Positions 22,658 through 31,678 of a stretch of DNA of 64,000 nt are shown here, piece by piece (position 1 is the first letter of the stretch; each line of letters begins with the position of its first letter). The position numbers and the translations under genes were made by a program. The stretch spans positions 1-64,000 of the forward strand of contig JANRJM010000004.1 in NCBI GenBank assembly GCA_033763975.1, written 5' to 3'. The notes beneath the pieces were generated by a model. It was not told the origin of the DNA. It worked only from the letters and a program-made list of their open reading frames with translations, and searched no databases. This stretch comes from Planctomycetota bacterium (GTDB lineage: Bacteria; Planctomycetota; Phycisphaerae; Phycisphaerales; UBA1924).

Positions 22658-25600
22658 CTACGGGATGCGGTTGAGCGAGGTGGTGATGCCGAAGGGCAGC
22701 CCGCTGGTCGCCCACCCGCCGCCCAGGAACAGGTCGTAGTGCTGCATGGTGGCGATGAAGGGCAGCGGGGCGGAGGTGTCGACGGCGAACCACTGACGCC
22801 CGGCGCGCTGCTGGACGATCTCGGGGCGCTCGTGGAGCTTGACCTCGGCGAAGCCGCGCGGGGCGATGGTCTGGGTGAAGGTGGACTCGCTGCCGTCGAC
22901 GAACACCAGGCGGATGCTGACGGTGTTGGTGAGGGCGGTGGGGTTATGGAAGAAGAGGGTCTCGAAGAAGAGCTGGCCGGCGTCCTCGACGTTGATGTAA
23001 GCATCGCCGAAGTAGAACTGACGTGCCGCGACGGTCGCGGGCTGGGTGGCTTCGCCGTCGCCGAACTGCGTCTGCCCGCCGAGGGCGTTGATCGGCACGC
23101 TGGAGACCCAGCGCAGGCCGACGGGCTGGTCGGCGACGAGCCCGAGCGTGGCGGCGGAGAGCACGACCTGCGAGCGCGGGGCGATGTCGATGGTGCGGGT
23201 GAAGCTCGGCAGGTTGAGGCGGATGTACGAGCCCGTGAGCGAGACGGTCGCGGTGGTGCTCCCCGGGTTGAAGAAGACGACCTCGGACGAAACGGTGGAG
23301 CCCTGCGCGATGTTGGTGATGACCCCGCGGAGGGCGGCGCCCTGCGGGTTGTCGGCGGTGACGGGCGTGCCCAGGACCGAGTACGCGGCGTCTCCCGAGA
23401 TCGAGTAGTGCGAGAGCGAGGCGACGATGCCCTCGAACGCGCCCTGGTCGCTGGGGTTCGCGGCGGCGGCGGTCACCGTCAGCCCGAAGGTGCCCAGCGG
23501 GAACTGCGTGAGCTGATCGATGGAGAACCCGCCGCGACGCAGCCCCTCGAAGCGCTGCGTGACGGAGATGCTCTGCCCGTTCTGCGACGCGGTGAGCGTG
23601 ACGTTGATGTCAAAGGGGTTGGGGTTGTAGAAAACGATGAAGTCGCGGGCCGTGCCCGGGTTGCGCTCGACGCGGGCGAAGTTCCACGTCGCCGAGAGCG
23701 TCTCGGTGAAGGAATCGCCCACGGCCGAGCCGAAGTCGTAGTGGGCCAGGGTGGCGCCCAGCGGGAGGTCGGACTCCAGGATGATCGAGTACGGGGTGTC
23801 GAGGATGAGCCCGGGGGTCTGGTAGAAGGGCCCGTCGATGAGGGTGAGCCCGTCGCGCGAGTTCGGCTGCACCACCCCGCTCGAGATGATCGTCTCGAGC
23901 TGGCCCCACTCGTAGCGGATGTAGACGGTGTAGTTGGCGGCGGCGCTGTTCGGGTTGATGATCGACAGGAACTCGCGGATGTTCGTGTTCGCGAAGCCCT
24001 CGGGGAAGAAGACGCGGTTGGTGAGCGGCTGGGTGTTGACCTGCACCTCGTACGAGCCGACCGACTCGCCCAGCCCGTCCACGATCACCCAGTAGCGGGT
24101 GTTCGCGCTGCCCGTGAAGGTGACGGAGGCGGTGACGCCCGGCACGCCGTCGGCGTCGAAGCCGTTGGCCACCGTGACCGCACCCAGTTCGTCGTCGTCG
24201 AAGCGTCCGTTGCCGTTGCTGTCCACCGGCACCGCGTTCACCACGCGCACCGACGCGTCGAGCAGCGAGCCCAGCGGCGTGATCACCTGCACGAACACGC
24301 GCCCCGCGGCGGTGGTCACGAAGGTGAAGAGGTCACGATCGCCGGACGGGCTGATCTGGTCGAAGCGCCCGGCGTCGCCCGTGCGCGGGTCCAGAGAGAC
24401 CGTGAGCGGCGCGTTGAAGTCGATCTCGGCCGGGTCGTCGCCGCCGCCGCCCGGGGGAACCGGGCCGTTCACCTGCACGCTGTACTCGCCCGCGAGCGTT
24501 CCGCCGGGGATGCCCGTGACCGCGCTGACGAGGATGTAGAACCGGGTGCCGGCGGCGGCGGTCACGGTGAAGGAGACCGACTGGAGCGCGGCGGAAGCGG
24601 CGACCTCGCCGACCTGCACGCCGCTGGCGTTGAAGACGGTCAGTCGCGGGGCGATGCTCCCCCCGGCGAGGAAGGGCGTGATGACGATCTGCTGCTCGCC
24701 GGTCTGGATGGCGACAAACGTGAAGAGGTCGGTGTCGTTCGTGGGCGACAGGCGCGGGTTGAGCGGGTCGTTGGGCGTGCTGCCGCCCACCTGCGCGACG
24801 CCGGTCACGGTGTTGAAGATCATGCCGGTCGCGAGCGTGAACTCGCCGGCGTTGGGATGATCGTCGATCGGCGGGGCGATCACGCTGAGCGAGTAGTCGC
24901 CGGTCACCGTCGTGACGGTGTTCGGGGTTCCCGTGTCCTCATAGCCCTGCACGGAGATGAAGTAGGTCGTGTTGCGGACGGCGGTGCCGGTCGCGGACGA
25001 GGTGGTGATGAAGAGGCTGTCCTGGCCAGTGCCGCTCGCGATGACGGTGCCCGCCGAATCGGTCACGAAGACGCGTGTGCGCAGCGTGCTGGAGCCCGGG
25101 CGCCCCACGACGACCTGGAAGGGCCCGCCGGCGGGCGCGGTGAACTGGAAGAGATCGGAGTCGCCGATGCGTTCGATCGACCCGGTGGCGTTGCCCAGGC
25201 CCGTGCCCGTGTCGACGACGACGCGGGTGGCGAACGAGAACTCGCCGGTGTCCACGGTGGTGGGGGTGGGCGCGTCCTCGGGCTGCGCGTCGGGGTGGTC
25301 GTCGGTGCCGGGGAAGTTGAACGTGACGGTGTACGCGCCCCGGTCGGCGGCGGGGTTGGCCCCCTGCACCACGACGTAGTAGTAGGGGTACGGGCGGACC
25401 GGGCCGCCCTGCGGCGCCTTCTCGCGCCCCGGGGTGATCGGGAACGTCACGCGCGCGGTGGTCGAGCCGGTGGCGAAGTTGTCGTTGTTCGCGATCCGCA
25501 GCAGCATCGGGTTCGCGTTGGGGTCTTCGCTCACCTCGTAGACCGACACGACCGGATCGAGCGTGGGATCGAGCGCCGTGACGTCGATCGTGAGCGAGCT

Positions 25601-28600
25601 GTAGAAGTCCTCGAACGAGAAGCGGAAGAGGTCGGTGTCGCCGGCCTCCTCGATGCTGCCGGAGATCTGTCCCAGGCCCAGGAAGTCGCGGAGGATGATG
25701 GTCTGCGCGTCCTCGAGCTTGGCGAAGTCGGCGTAGTCGTCGACCTCGGGCACGCCGGTGATCGCGACGTTGTACCCGCCCTCGGTCCCGCCTTCGCCGG
25801 CGATGAGCAGGTAGAACTCCTCGCCCTTCTGCACGTCGAAGTCGATGCGCGACCCGCCCCCGGAGATCGGCACGCCGGTCGCGACCGGGTTGTTGAGATC
25901 GGCGGTGCGGAAGAGGAGCACGGCCGGGTTAAGCGTGGAGCCCGTGGCGCGGGTGACGTCGATCCGCATCGTGCCCGAGCCGGGCGCGATGAACGTGAAG
26001 AGGTCCTGGTCGTCGGGGTTGTTGAAGGGGGTGTCGTTGATGATCCCGCTGAACGAGGCGGTGCCGTTGGCGCTGCCCGAGGAGAGATCGCCGATGCCGA
26101 TCGGGGTGGCGAGGTTCTGGCCGGCGCCGCTGAAGTTCGCGTGGTCGTCGAAGACGGTCTGCCCGTTCTCGATGTCGTTGATCTGGTTGGGCATCGCGTT
26201 GATGAGGAGCTGGTACCCGCCGGTGGTCTGGCGGATGTCGAGCTCGCGCGCGATGCGCTCGACGCGGGCGTTGGGGTCGGCGGACGAGCCGTCGTCGAAG
26301 CGGGCGCCGCTCTCGACCTGCACGAAGTACGTGTTGCCGGCGATGACCGGGACGACGACGCGCGGATCGCGCGAGGTGAAGCGGAAGACGCCGACCGCGC
26401 CGAACTGCACGTCCTGGAAGTCGCTCGTGATGGCGGCGTTGTCGTCGCTGTAGGCGATCTGCTCGAAGTCGTTGCGGAAGACGCGGAGCGCGCCGTCGAA
26501 CATGTTGAACGTCTGCTTCGCGAGCCCGCGGAACGCCGTGCCGTACGCCTCGCCGTACTCGTCGGTCATGGTCGAGGTGGAGAGGCGGATCTCGGCGAAG
26601 CCGGTGAACTGGGCGCGGAACGAGTACAGGTCGGTGTCGTCGATCTCGGAGATGGTGCCGACGTCGCCGCGCGAGTTGAACGAGTTGCCCGTGGACGGGT
26701 TCACCTGCTGCACGCGGGCGATGTTGCCCTTGAGGGGCTGGGCGGCGGAGTTGCGGTAGTTCGTGTTGTCGCCGATGCCCAGCGGGAGGGTGATGGTGAG
26801 CGCGGAGGTGAAGTTGCCCTCGTCGGTCTCTTCCGAGACGCGGGCGTTGAGGTCGTCGCGCACGCCGTCGCCGTTGAGGTCCTCGGGCATCGCGTCGACG
26901 ATGACGCTGAGGGTGTAACGCCCGGTGCCGCCGCGGTCCGTGGTGGTCGTGTCGTCGCCGCCGCCGAGGCTGCTGACCTCGATGTAGTAGGTCTCCCCGC
27001 CCCAGAGAGTGATGCCGGCGAGCTGGGTGTCCAGGCCCGGCGCCGCGAGGGAGGGGTCGATCATGCCGGCCGGATCGGGGAAGGGCGGGGCGATCGTCTC
27101 GCTGCCCGGGCGCCCGAAGCCGTACACGATGTTGAAGTTCGAGTCGTACACGCGGACGCGCATGTTGGCGAACGAGCCGCTCGCGGGCGAGACGGAGATC
27201 GCCATGCGGGTGGCGGGGCGGTCGTGCCGGTCCCAGTCAAGGGGGTTGCCGTCGTCGAAGCCCGAGAGCGCGTAGACCGCGGTGGGGGGGATGGTCTGAT
27301 CGGTGTTCACCACGCCGCCGGCGAGCGAGGTGAAGTAGAAGAAGTCCTGCCCCGTGAAATCGTCGTGGAACGCGCTGAACTGCGCGACGTTCGCCGCGAG
27401 GACCGGGTCGTTGAGGTCGCCGTTGGTGACTTCGGTGAACTCCCCGCCGACGTAGAGGACCTGCTGCGGGTCGCCGGAGTTGAGGTCCTCGGCTTCGATG
27501 CCCGGCTCCTGCGCGTCGGTGAGCGTGGTGAGCGTGCGCACGATGCCGTTGGTGCCCACGGAGGCGTTGAACCAGCCGAAGCCGATGGGCGCGTCGGTGG
27601 CGGGATCGACGGCGAAGGCGACGAGATTGTCCAGGCCGCCGGCGTTGAAGGCGCCGCCCGCGACCAGCACCGGGTCGATGGTCGTGTTGTTGATGTCCGG
27701 CGGGTCCCACGTCGTGAGGGCGTACACGCCGACCGGATCGCCGTTGGCGTTCGGGGCCGTGATGCCCGCGTCCACCTGCTCCCAGGTGAGGCGCGGGTTG
27801 AAGTTCGCGAGCTGCGTGTCGCGCGAACCGCCGGCCGCCGCGCCGAGGAAGCCCCACGCCGCCAGGTTCGCGGCGGGGGTGTTCCCGCCCTCGCCGTCGG
27901 CGATGGACGTGAACTCCCCGCCGATGATGAGCACGGTGTCGGGGGCCTCGATCTGCCCGACCGCCCCGTCGGGGTCCCAGCCGGCGTAGGTCGTGAGCGC
28001 CCGCACGGGCCCGTTGGGCCCGGCGTTGGTGCGCACGCCCGCCGCCGGGCCGCCCCAGACCATGTCGATGAACGCCCCGTCGTAGTAGGCGAGGTTCTGC
28101 ACCGCCAGCCCGTCGATCGTGCTGAAGTCGCCGCCGATGAACAGCGAGGGCGGGATGTCGCGGCTGTCGTTGACCTGCGGGACCGGGGGCGGGCCGGGCT
28201 GCCCGGCGCGCTCCTCGCCGGCGTCCGCGGGGTCATAAACCGTCAGCGCGTACACGGGACCGTCGGTCCCCGCGCCGAAGGGCAGCCAGCCGTTGACCAC
28301 GTCGAACGTCGCGAGGTTGGCCGCGGCGTTCCCGTCGACCGTCGTGAACTCGCCGCCCACGGCGAGGTAGGGCACCGCGTTGGTGGCGATCTCCGGACGG
28401 TTCGTGTCGACGTCCAGCCCCGGGTCGTTGAGGCCCGGGACGGTCTCTTCAGGGATGAACGACGCGAGCGCGCGGACCGGGCCGTCGACGTCGCCCAGGC
28501 TTGCCCAGCCCCACTGGCCGGTCGTGAAGTCCTGGATCCACACGGCGAGGTTCTTGAACGTCACGGGCCCGAGCAGGCCGGGGACCACGAGGTCGAAGTC

Positions 28601-30580
28601 GCCGCCGACGACGAGCCAGCGACGGCTCATGCCGGTCGGCACGGTGCCGGGCGTGCCGGGGTCGTAGTCGTGCAGGGCGTAGATCTCGGCGCGGGTGGTG
28701 CCGGCGGTGTCGGGGTTGTCGTTGAACCCGTACGTGACGTTGTTCGCCTGGTCGAAGAACTGCGCGCCCGTGTACCACCAGTCGGCCGCGTCCCAGGTCG
28801 TCAGCGTGCGCGAGGTGGTGAGCCAGGGGGTGTTGTTGCTGCCCGCCTGGAAGGCCCCGCCGACGAAGAGCGACGTGCCCTGGTCGTCGTTGTTGCCGGC
28901 GTAGTCGATCAGCATGTCCGTCGGCGCGGTGAACTGGAAAAGATCGGTGTCGTCCGACGCCGACCCGTTCGCGTCGTAGATGCGGCCCGTCGCGCTCGCG
29001 ATCGCCCGCACGCCCCGGTCGCGGATGTGGTTCTGGTTCGCGTCGAGCACCGGCGTGGGGCCGCTGAACGTCAGCCCCGTCGCGAGCATCGCGATGCGCC
29101 GGGCGGCGTCGCGCTGCTCGGGCGTCGGGTTCGCGCCGAGCACCGGCGAGTTGATGTGGTCGTCGTCGCCGGCGGCGTTGGTGACGTTCGCCTCGACATT
29201 GATGATGTACTGCGTGGCGCTGTTGATCTCGAACCCGTCGACCACCACGTAGTACAGCTCGCCCCCCACGAGGCTCACCTGGAGCTGCGCCGCCAGCCCG
29301 GCGAAGTTGTCGTTGTACGCGACCAGGTTGCCCGCGTCGTCGAACAGGCGCACCGCCGGGTCCGTCACCGGCGCCAGGCCCGTCGGCGTGACGGTGATGA
29401 TCGCCAGCCCGTCGCCCGAGGCCTCGAACCCGTACGAGTGCGTCTGGAACGTCGGGCGCGGGATGGGCGGGGGAACGTTCGGCGCGGTCGTCGCCACGAA
29501 GGCCCCGGTGTCGGACCCCCGGCGCGTGACCGAGTTCAGCGTGATCGTCTCGACGACCGTGTCCGCCACCAGCCAGAAGTCGCCCGTCGCGAGCGTGACG
29601 TCGAACGCGGGGTCGCCGGCGTTGCGCGGGCGGATCTCATCGCTGCGCACGCGGATGAAGTACGTCTCGCCCTGCTCCGCGAGGAACGTCGTGAACGCGT
29701 CGTTGATGCGCCCCGCGTCGCTGTCGGCGTTCAGCAGCACGCCCTCCGAGTCGTACACGTCCAGGCGCGTGTCAAGGCGGTCGGGGATCGTGCTGCCCGG
29801 CAGGAACGGGCGGTTGTACCGGTTGTGCTGCGCGTTCAGCGTCACCAGGCTCGTCTGGGCCGCGGTGTACGTCCACACCTGGTCGTCCTGACGCACGCCC
29901 AGCGATCCGCCCACCGGCCAGATCGAGAGCGGAGCGGGCGGGGGCGTCGCGGGGTCGATCGCCACGCCCTCGGCCGTCGCCGACCAGGCGGCCGGGACCG
30001 TCGCGAAGGTGTTCGACAGCGCCGAGATGCGGAGCGTGAAGGTGTTGCCGGTCGTGAGGTTCGGGGCCGGCCCCGCGTAATCGCTGGAGACCACGACGTA
30101 GTACGTCTCGCCCGAGGTCGCATGGAAGCCCGCCCAGCCGTCGGTCGCCAGCCCGGTCGTCAGGATGCCGTTGTTCGTGCCCGATGCCACCTGCGTAAAG
30201 GTGCTGTCGAAGACGGTGACCCGGGTGTTCAGCGTGCTCGCGGGCGACTCGTTCGCCGTGTCCGCGAGGATTCGGACGAAGTCGGACGCGGGCGCCACGA
30301 ACCGGTAGTAGTCGTTGTCGGTCGGGGCCTGCGCCGGGTTGATGACCCCGGCCGAGGTCCCCCGCCCGCCGCCGTCCAGGTTCACGAGGATCGCCGTGGC
30401 GAACGAACCCTCGAGCATCGTGCGGGCTTCGAGCGAGTCGACGCCGGCGGCCTCGGGACGCTGCTCGCTGAGCCCGAGCGCTCGACCCACTCGCGCCGCG
30501 AGCGAGCGGGCGCGCCGGCGCTCACGAACAACGGGATTCGAGCGGCGGGCAAGGAACGAGCGACCATCGCGGCTGTTCAT
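22658..30580 (-). CDS. Giant secreted protein: LEPR-XLL-like N-terminus, PPC repeats, propeller insert, C-terminal NP-type modules
   Basis: 2640 residues. The ATG at 30580 has GGAG six bases upstream (a GTG four codons earlier is possible). The N-terminus is arginine-rich and reaches SLEARTML near residue 50, which fits the planctomycete LEPR-XLL motif that replaces a normal signal peptide. About ten pre-peptidase C-terminal (PPC)-like beta-sandwich units follow, marked by D-T/S-D-L-F-x-F (TDNDYYRFVAP, DDTDLFQFTAP, DDTDLYSFRAQ, GDSDLFQFTAPA, NDTDLFTFVA, GDRDLFTFVT). One is interrupted by a seven-repeat region at about residues 555-1120. The last 450 residues hold four related modules built on F-x-N-P (IINPNS, FYNPNPF, FFNPGST, FFHNPTA). 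It is probably cell-surface or secreted; the ligand is unknown. Confidence 0.85.
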   Translation of the reverse strand: MNSRDGRSFLARRSNPVVRERRRARSLAARVGRALGLSEQRPEAAGVDSLEARTMLEGSFATAILVNLDGGGRGTSAGVINPAQAPTDNDYYRFVAPASDFVRILADTANESPASTLNTRVTVFDSTFTQVASGTNNGILTTGLATDGWAGFHATSGETYYVVVSSDYAGPAPNLTTGNTFTLRISALSNTFATVPAAWSATAEGVAIDPATPPPAPLSIWPVGGSLGVRQDDQVWTYTAAQTSLVTLNAQHNRYNRPFLPGSTIPDRLDTRLDVYDSEGVLLNADSDAGRINDAFTTFLAEQGETYFIRVRSDEIRPRNAGDPAFDVTLATGDFWLVADTVVETITLNSVTRRGSDTGAFVATTAPNVPPPIPRPTFQTHSYGFEASGDGLAIITVTPTGLAPVTDPAVRLFDDAGNLVAYNDNFAGLAAQLQVSLVGGELYYVVVDGFEINSATQYIINVEANVTNAAGDDDHINSPVLGANPTPEQRDAARRIAMLATGLTFSGPTPVLDANQNHIRDRGVRAIASATGRIYDANGSASDDTDLFQFTAPTDMLIDYAGNNDDQGTSLFVGGAFQAGSNNTPWLTTSRTLTTWDAADWWYTGAQFFDQANNVTYGFNDNPDTAGTTRAEIYALHDYDPGTPGTVPTGMSRRWLVVGGDFDLVVPGLLGPVTFKNLAVWIQDFTTGQWGWASLGDVDGPVRALASFIPEETVPGLNDPGLDVDTNRPEIATNAVPYLAVGGEFTTVDGNAAANLATFDVVNGWLPFGAGTDGPVYALTVYDPADAGEERAGQPGPPPVPQVNDSRDIPPSLFIGGDFSTIDGLAVQNLAYYDGAFIDMVWGGPAAGVRTNAGPNGPVRALTTYAGWDPDGAVGQIEAPDTVLIIGGEFTSIADGEGGNTPAANLAAWGFLGAAAGGSRDTQLANFNPRLTWEQVDAGITAPNANGDPVGVYALTTWDPPDINNTTIDPVLVAGGAFNAGGLDNLVAFAVDPATDAPIGFGWFNASVGTNGIVRTLTTLTDAQEPGIEAEDLNSGDPQQVLYVGGEFTEVTNGDLNDPVLAANVAQFSAFHDDFTGQDFFYFTSLAGGVVNTDQTIPPTAVYALSGFDDGNPLDWDRHDRPATRMAISVSPASGSFANMRVRVYDSNFNIVYGFGRPGSETIAPPFPDPAGMIDPSLAAPGLDTQLAGITLWGGETYYIEVSSLGGGDDTTTTDRGGTGRYTLSVIVDAMPEDLNGDGVRDDLNARVSEETDEGNFTSALTITLPLGIGDNTNYRNSAAQPLKGNIARVQQVNPSTGNSFNSRGDVGTISEIDDTDLYSFRAQFTGFAEIRLSTSTMTDEYGEAYGTAFRGLAKQTFNMFDGALRVFRNDFEQIAYSDDNAAITSDFQDVQFGAVGVFRFTSRDPRVVVPVIAGNTYFVQVESGARFDDGSSADPNARVERIARELDIRQTTGGYQLLINAMPNQINDIENGQTVFDDHANFSGAGQNLATPIGIGDLSSGSANGTASFSGIINDTPFNNPDDQDLFTFIAPGSGTMRIDVTRATGSTLNPAVLLFRTADLNNPVATGVPISGGGSRIDFDVQKGEEFYLLIAGEGGTEGGYNVAITGVPEVDDYADFAKLEDAQTIILRDFLGLGQISGSIEEAGDTDLFRFSFEDFYSSLTIDVTALDPTLDPVVSVYEVSEDPNANPMLLRIANNDNFATGSTTARVTFPITPGREKAPQGGPVRPYPYYYVVVQGANPAADRGAYTVTFNFPGTDDHPDAQPEDAPTPTTVDTGEFSFATRVVVDTGTGLGNATGSIERIGDSDLFQFTAPAGGPFQVVVGRPGSSTLRTRVFVTDSAGTVIASGTGQDSLFITTSSATGTAVRNTTYFISVQGYEDTGTPNTVTTVTGDYSLSVIAPPIDDHPNAGEFTLATGMIFNTVTGVAQVGGSTPNDPLNPRLSPTNDTDLFTFVAIQTGEQQIVITPFLAGGSIAPRLTVFNASGVQVGEVAASAALQSVSFTVTAAAGTRFYILVSAVTGIPGGTLAGEYSVQVNGPVPPGGGGDDPAEIDFNAPLTVSLDPRTGDAGRFDQISPSGDRDLFTFVTTAAGRVFVQVITPLGSLLDASVRVVNAVPVDSNGNGRFDDDELGAVTVANGFDADGVPGVTASVTFTGSANTRYWVIVDGLGESVGSYEVQVNTQPLTNRVFFPEGFANTNIREFLSIINPNSAAANYTVYIRYEWGQLETIISSGVVQPNSRDGLTLIDGPFYQTPGLILDTPYSIILESDLPLGATLAHYDFGSAVGDSFTETLSATWNFARVERNPGTARDFIVFYNPNPFDINVTLTASQNGQSISVTQRFEGLRRGGFSIDQLTQFPLGTFGLTVTAAAANPSDQGAFEGIVASLSHYSISGDAAYSVLGTPVTADNPQGAALRGVITNIAQGSTVSSEVVFFNPGSTTATVSLTGSYIRLNLPSFTRTIDIAPRSQVVLSAATLGLVADQPVGLRWVSSVPINALGGQTQFGDGEATQPATVAARQFYFGDAYINVEDAGQLFFETLFFHNPTALTNTVSIRLVFVDGSESTFTQTIAPRGFAEVKLHERPEIVQQRAGRQWFAVDTSAPLPFIATMQHYDLFLGGGWATSGLPFGITTSLNRIP
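27430..28872 (-). repeat. Seven GGxF repeats (putative beta-propeller) inside the giant gene
   Basis: Seven strands with the pattern hydrophobic-x-x-GG-[EDA]-F occur in order: LFVGGAF, LVVGGDF, LAVGGEF, LFIGGDF, LIIGGEF, LVAGGAF, LYVGGEF. They lie at about 28860, 28600, 28355, 28130, 27920, 27655 and 27445, about 70-88 codons apart. Most are followed by an ANLA-like phrase and preceded by a GPVxAL phrase, as in blade repeats. The blades are diverged in sequence, so this is an old repeat and not a recent duplication. Confidence 0.7.
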
Positions 30581-30949
30581 GTCGGGCTCCACAAATCTCC
30601 GGCGATCGCGGTCGGCCGGCTCCTCCGGCGGGACGATCGGCCACGTGTCGTGCGTGCGGCGCCGCGGCAGGGGTCCTCCCTCCGCTCGCGTGCTCCCCGC
30701 GCGTTCGCGCCTTGGGCAGGCGTCGCGCCGGACGTCGGCTCACGCCGATCGTTCGAGCACGCGCACGCTCACTCGACCAGCATACCGACTTCCGACGCGT
30801 GTCGTCCAGTCCGGTTCCCGTCCTAACGCATTGCGAACGGCTTTCGGCGGCCGGGGCTCCCTCCCGGCGAACGCTGGTGCGTCACCATTCGCGTCGCATG
30901 ACCGGGTGTTCCGCCGGCGATGCAGGTTCGTCACGCGCTTCGCGAACCG
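30581..30949. other. Intergenic region upstream of the giant gene
   Basis: About 370 bases with no convincing gene. On the minus strand a weak promoter candidate is TGGACG (30803-30808), 18 bases, then TATGCT (30779-30784), each matching four of six consensus bases, about 200 bases upstream of the giant gene. No clear terminator follows the racemase-like gene. Confidence 0.3.
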
Positions 30950-31678
30950 TTACGACGCCAGCGCGCCCGGGCGGTGATCTTCCGCCCGACGCGTCATGCT
31001 CCGGCGGATCGAGGCCTCGGCCAGGATGTCCGCCGCGTCGTAGACCGGCAGGGGCGAGTTGTCGCGCGTCACCATCAGCGGGGCCTCGCTGCACGCGAGG
31101 ATCACCGCCTCGCACCCGCGGTCGGCGAGCGACGCGATGATCTTCAGCACCGCCAGCCGGCTCTCCGGGCGGATCTGCCCGTAGATCAGCTCGCCGAAGA
31201 TCACCTCGTCGAGCAGGTCGTCGTCGCCGTTCTTGGGGGGAAGCACCTGCACCCCCTTGAGGCCCAGGTGCGTCTGGTAGGTCGACGCCGTCGTGATCAA
31301 CTTCGTGCCGATGAGCCCGACGCACCGGCGTCCGTCCGCGGCCACCGCCGCCGCCACCAGGTCCGGCATCGTCAGCCACGGGATCGGGCTGTTGACCTCC
31401 GCCATCTGGACGGCGTGCTGGACGGCGTTGTCGGGCGCGATGCAGAACTGCGCCCCGCACCGGGCCAGCAGGTCCGCCGAGCGGCGCAGCAGACGGTCCA
31501 CCGCGTGCCAGTCGTTGCGACGGATGGCGTCGAGGTAGAAGTGCAGGGGCTCGTTGTGCACCGAGATGCGGGGCTGCTCGGTCGGGCTCATCAGCCGCCC
31601 CGCGTGCCGCGTGAGCTGCTGGTAAAAGAGCGCGGCCCCCTCTGGGCTGACTCCCACGATGCCGATGTGGCTGGTCAT
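30950..31678 (-). CDS. Aspartate/glutamate racemase family protein with an altered first active-site position
   Basis: 242 residues with the racemase opening IGIVGVSPEGAALFYQQL. In active two-cysteine racemases the first cysteine sits in a C-N-T motif; here the matching loop reads APDNAVQHA, aspartate in place of cysteine. The second cysteine is present in ILACSEAPL. Such proteins may be one-base racemases, hydrolases or isomerases, or may use other substrates. It follows the DUF1080 gene by 34 bases on the same strand, so the two are probably one transcript. Confidence 0.82.
   Translation of the reverse strand: MTSHIGIVGVSPEGAALFYQQLTRHAGRLMSPTEQPRISVHNEPLHFYLDAIRRNDWHAVDRLLRRSADLLARCGAQFCIAPDNAVQHAVQMAEVNSPIPWLTMPDLVAAAVAADGRRCVGLIGTKLITTASTYQTHLGLKGVQVLPPKNGDDDLLDEVIFGELIYGQIRPESRLAVLKIIASLADRGCEAVILACSEAPLMVTRDNSPLPVYDAADILAEASIRRSMTRRAEDHRPGALAS

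Follow-up and report, generated by a model that had tools for sequence, protein, structure and literature searches.

In prolyl oligopeptidase (S9), the propeller interrupts the sequence of the catalytic domain. This seven-bladed propeller is joined to the second, catalytic domain and covers it (PMC11878206). New protein architectures arise to a large extent by domain insertion, most cases of which are old and fixed. In integrin alpha, the propeller hosts an inserted I domain. Two sources describe the I domain as inserted into a loop of the surface receptor in some lineages, where it alters binding (PMC12422189, PMC10659397). Domain insertion is widespread, accounting for about 20% of multidomain proteins in one survey (PMC13114784).

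Domain insertion and the pairing of a propeller with an enzyme are known, and a propeller nested in a PPC domain may be unpublished: none was found in a literature search on propeller insertion and planctomycete giant proteins, in which subscription journals were mostly uncovered. No report of a comparable series of propeller gains and losses was found in the literature, with the same coverage of journals. The locus described here lies in a window (the whole stretch of DNA analysed, 64,000 nucleotides) from a planctomycete bacterium. According to our main reading, to which we give a probability of roughly 0.75, residues 575-1112 of its giant protein form a closed seven-bladed propeller in the loop of a PPC-like domain, an old head on conserved linkers that was lost several times.

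The giant protein and its seven-repeat block

The gene of the giant protein was located on the minus strand at positions 22658-30592 and encodes 2644 aa from a GTG start. An alternative ATG start at 30580 (codon 5), with GGAG ahead of it, is as good as the GTG. GC3 was 97% on the minus strand of the gene and equal inside and outside the propeller block. A plus-strand ORF of 2695 residues (22739-30826) runs antisense to the gene and has the mirrored third-position GC pattern. Because of the 97% GC3 of the minus strand, this ORF was rejected as a gene and considered a GC-rich shadow.

PPC-like units strung together make up most of the giant protein. Comparison of the whole protein with Pfam and NCBIfam gave a weak PPC match and nothing else, and sequence searches of the PDB gave no useful match. 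The N-terminal region contains a LEARTML motif that has a similar counterpart in a cyclophilin-like protein encoded by the same genome. The C-terminal region (residues 2190-2640; 22673-24025, minus strand) is common to four other proteins of the same genome, with 27-33% identity and E values from 1e-17 to 1e-66. No Pfam or NCBIfam family matched these approximately 450 residues, which were also seen in many proteins across the family and resemble a repeated 'NPN/NPT' beta-rich unit. This region is possibly a sorting or anchoring region. Judged from the sequence, the PPC-like modules, the LEARTML-containing N-terminal region and the shared C-terminal region fit a protein that would be exported and attached to the surface.

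All parts of the interrupted domain are on the minus strand. The first half of the PPC-like domain (residues 521-557; 28922-29032) ends in DDTDLFQFTAP and is followed by the N-side linker (residues 558-574, TDMLIDYAGNNDDQGTS; 28871-28921). The insert itself (residues 575-1112; 27257-28870) is supported by the GGxF and VxAL strands, a blade profile and an AlphaFold2 (AF2) model. It is followed by the C-side linker (residues 1113-1128, DDGNPLDWDRHDRPAT; 27209-27256) and by the second half of the domain (residues 1129-1240; 26873-27208). The initial annotation had described exactly seven GGxF repeats of 70-88 residues between two PPC halves, and this description was confirmed. The seven hhhGGxF strands start at residues 575, 660, 743, 817, 888, 976 and 1046 (28870, 28615, 28366, 28144, 27931, 27667 and 27457 in the window, minus strand), with spacings of 85, 83, 74, 71, 88 and 70 residues. 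The PPC start motif and the motifs RMAISVSP and MRVRVYDSNF were all found where they had been placed; the landmarks are DTDLFQFTAP at residue 548 (28951), RMAISVSP at residue 1129 (27208) and MRVRVYDSNF at residue 1144 (27163).

Seven VxAL strands (residues 637, 706, 780, 863, 956, 1018 and 1106) alternate strictly with the seven GGxF strands; GGxF opens the block and VxAL ends it. When the block was shuffled 20,000 times, the mean number of GGxF strands was 0.04 and the maximum 2, versus seven observed. The last strand, VYALSGF (residues 1106-1112; 27257-27277, minus strand), is predicted to complete blade 1 and to close the ring.

AF2 models were built from five sequences, those of the window and of four related loci. 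The model of the PPC halves with the block had a pLDDT of 62 and a pTM of 0.62. The model of the block alone had a pLDDT of 66 and a pTM of 0.76, with the last strand at model residues 543-551. Confidence was modest because only five sequences were usable. Structures were compared using Foldseek, with VIA-align as a second look. For both models, the entire block matched closed seven-bladed rings, with Z of about 19-21. The matches of the block-alone model were a BBSome chain (Z 21.1) and 7bid (Z 20.4), and also PRL1, RACK1 and beta'-COP. The designed seven-blade ring 7bid was aligned over model residues 11-552, first strand included. Foldseek TM-scores were low (mostly 0.16-0.29 by query length), and the models have long low-confidence loops. 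The closed seven-blade ring that had been predicted for the repeats is thus supported by models of modest pLDDT (62-66). We consider it very probable that the block is a nested seven-bladed propeller.

Orthologues with and without the block

Orthologue matches were obtained in 77 of the 163 genomes of one Phycisphaerales family, and none outside this family when 301 genomes of the order were searched at E 1e-20. After alignment of whole orthologous genes, the insert state could be scored on the tree for 70 of them, the window copy among these; an additional fragment stops within the block. Orthologues with 330 residues or more between two anchors were considered as bearers and those with 26-45 residues as insert-less. 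The block was present in 48 orthologues and absent from the same loop in the other 22. The empty sites are in open reading frames and form one continuous domain of about the content of one PPC. Two motifs persist in their loops, VDMLgdf.G on the N side and W...RPsTR on the C side. The insert state was uniform in every one of the 31 genera, and single-contig assemblies show either state (G120 with the block, G111 without). The Asp/Glu racemase gene (30950-31678, minus strand), directly upstream of the giant gene and on the same strand, is taken as a genomic marker and not as a component of the propeller system. It adjoins the giant gene in almost all of the orthologous loci examined, whether or not these encode the propeller. 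This neighbourhood is conserved, yet it gave no functional hint.

An uninterrupted PPC of the giant protein (residues 1786-1905; 24878-25237, minus strand; PF04151 E 1.6e-4) was used as a yardstick. It scored 22.9 bits versus a PF04151 gathering score of 25.9, and 8 of 15 orthologous copies match. PF04151 gave no hit among the six isolated empty-site domains tested. The interrupted domain is termed 'PPC-like' here because the yardstick PPC and the empty-site domains are below the Pfam gathering score. The profile of the empty-site domain was aligned end to end with the yardstick PPC (97.5% probability, E 5.9e-12), and the gap opens exactly at the insertion loop. The host-domain motifs are PPC-like: a DxDLF.F strand, a (V/I)RVxDS strand, and GxxYYIxV and GRY ends. 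By profile comparison, the interrupted domain can be assigned as PPC-like. The initial annotation had claimed that the block interrupts one PPC domain and had proposed a comparison with homologues lacking the insert. Such homologues exist, and in these 22 of 70 orthologues the flanks form a single uninterrupted PPC-like domain, which agrees with the claim.

Conservation in the bearers was 0.64 for the N-side linker, 0.63 for the C-side linker, 0.33 for the blades and 0.44-0.56 for the other regions. Among the compared regions, conservation is thus highest in the linkers and lowest in the blades, where it is mainly confined to the structural GGxF and VxAL positions. In these alignments, such a distribution is that of a variable head on a fixed mounting.

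The blade profile, built from near relatives, recognised seven blades in 32 of the 48 bearers and five or six in the remaining ones; no bearer had eight. In G091 (L073), five blades were recognisable (330 residues) versus seven (452 residues) in its close relative G013 (L039); either two blades were lost recently or the repeats collapsed during assembly. In G145 (L069:3536-6382 (+), 3022 aa), an FG-GAP block of about 380 residues sits between propeller blades 3 and 4 (PF13517, E 1.7e-19, six stretches). Here one repeat block may be nested inside another; the arrangement was seen in one genome only and is possibly an artefact.

History of the insert and rival explanations

A tree was made from the region after the insert; it is unrooted (no orthologue outside the family). 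The insert state requires four changes on this flank tree and five with stricter columns. Grouping all empty orthologues as one clade was rejected (p about 1e-7), so at least two changes of state took place. Two empty groups, one per main clade, were not rejected by the tree test. The state thus changed at least twice and probably three or more times. In its main groups, the insert tree agrees with the flank tree; the few rows placed differently are G009/G020 and a six-row group around G083 and G099. The blades are collinear between the two main clades, with 45-47% identity (G009 47%, G020 45%). GC and GC3 are equal in the block and its flanks. A recent foreign origin of the block is unsupported, its composition being equal to that of the flanks, and no match to the block was found in plasmid records. 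Vertical inheritance of the block is supported by the trees, which mostly agree. Because of this agreement, the collinear blades and the equal composition of block and flanks, an old insertion that was vertically inherited and lost several times is preferred.

Repeated gain is the main competitor of this history. The empty state would then be ancestral, and the propeller would have been gained more than once at one permissive loop, from relatives or from stand-alone propellers. The direction of change is unrooted, several changes of state follow from the rejection of the single empty clade, DUF5122-type propellers are present elsewhere in 18 of the 163 genomes of the family, and a few rows of the insert tree conflict with the flank tree. 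However, bearers of both main clades align blade for blade and share their conserved linkers, most groups of the flank tree recur in the insert tree, and the empty sites carry parts of both linkers, so that we consider repeated gain rather improbable. The pattern of presence and absence could also be an assembly artefact, the genomes being mostly drafts of metagenomic origin in which repeats may collapse, as in the pair G091 and G013. This is the explanation to which we give the least credit: the frames are open through the site, 0 of 31 genera are mixed, and either state is found in a single-contig assembly.

Two other explanations concern the fold and the nesting. The repeats could form a beta structure that is open or irregular, for example an incomplete ring or an extended array, in agreement with the modest pLDDT, the long low-confidence loops, the low TM-scores and the five or six recognisable blades of some bearers. 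Against this stand a blade count never above seven, a closing order of strands, the matches of the entire block to closed seven-bladed rings (Z 19-21) and the kinship with DUF5122 and Rax2 propellers (see below); an open structure is accordingly judged improbable, more so than repeated gain. In a protein that is largely a PPC-like string, a propeller placed between two complete PPC-like domains would be ordinary, a string and not a nest. This arrangement is contradicted by the 22 orthologues whose flanks are one domain, aligned end to end with a single PPC. Since the insert-less flanks form one PPC-like domain, the objection that the two halves belong to two complete PPC domains is removed, and we hold the string arrangement to be very improbable.

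The preferred reading, an old propeller nested in one PPC-like domain, can be described as follows. The propeller would occupy the hairpin loop that connects two early strands of a single PPC-like beta-sandwich. Completion of blade 1 by the last (VxAL) strand would make both ends of the propeller meet. With its ends brought together, the block could sit on the loop without breaking the host domain. The protein, built of PPC-like modules, would be exported and stand on the cell surface, where the two fixed linkers would hold the propeller as a head. The variable propeller loops may bind a partner or a glycan needed by some lineages only, and this restricted need would account for the clean loss of the block several times. 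We give even chances to the propeller acting as a binding head. A wider view, in which one fixed PPC loop is a lineage-specific docking site for propellers, is more doubtful. The same head would then have been taken out or swapped several times at near-exact boundaries, with its linkers conserved, and G145 would have added a nested FG-GAP-type block; we propose this tentatively.

Relation to known propellers and nested domains

Searches with the block matched stand-alone repeat proteins in G043 and G046 (E 3e-6 and 5e-6), which themselves score 80 and 67 bits on DUF5122. No Pfam family passed its cut-off on the block of the window, DUF5122 (PF17164) reaching 8.9 bits versus a cut-off of 27. 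The bearer G145 reached 24.7 bits on DUF5122 (cut-off 27; E 2.8e-5). Because of its 8.9 bits versus 27, the window block is called 'DUF5122-like' and not a member. From sequence similarity, it appears to be a distant relative of the DUF5122 and Rax2-like propellers, below the cut-off for members. A stand-alone protein of 469 residues (L053:3821-5230 (+)), with seven regular FTxAGG repeats and 80 bits on DUF5122, is likely a simple single-propeller relative.

In this one family, dozens of orthologues either carry or lack the same insert of 540 residues at a single loop, with the genera cleanly separated. This natural series permits tests of whether touching ends, conserved linkers and an extended loop allow a domain to be plugged in or removed. 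The block also suggests where a giant planctomycete protein may carry a putative recognition head.

The DUF5122 (PF17164) and Rax2 C-terminal (PF12768) propellers have a blade plan like that of the block (VxAL, L.hGGxF, NhAxW, W..LG) and seven repeats. The blades of the window block are longer and vary more than theirs, and the block is set into another domain with dedicated linkers. An ordinary PPC (PF04151) has a turn of a few residues (APAGGP) where a loop of 26-45 residues or a propeller of several hundred residues is found here. As in prolyl oligopeptidase (S9), a seven-bladed propeller is combined with a second domain. In that enzyme, however, the propeller gates the active site of an alpha/beta hydrolase host, whereas the host here is a non-enzymatic beta-sandwich; the propeller of the giant protein was, moreover, gained or lost repeatedly. 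Compared with integrin alpha, the giant protein reverses the arrangement, the propeller being the insert.
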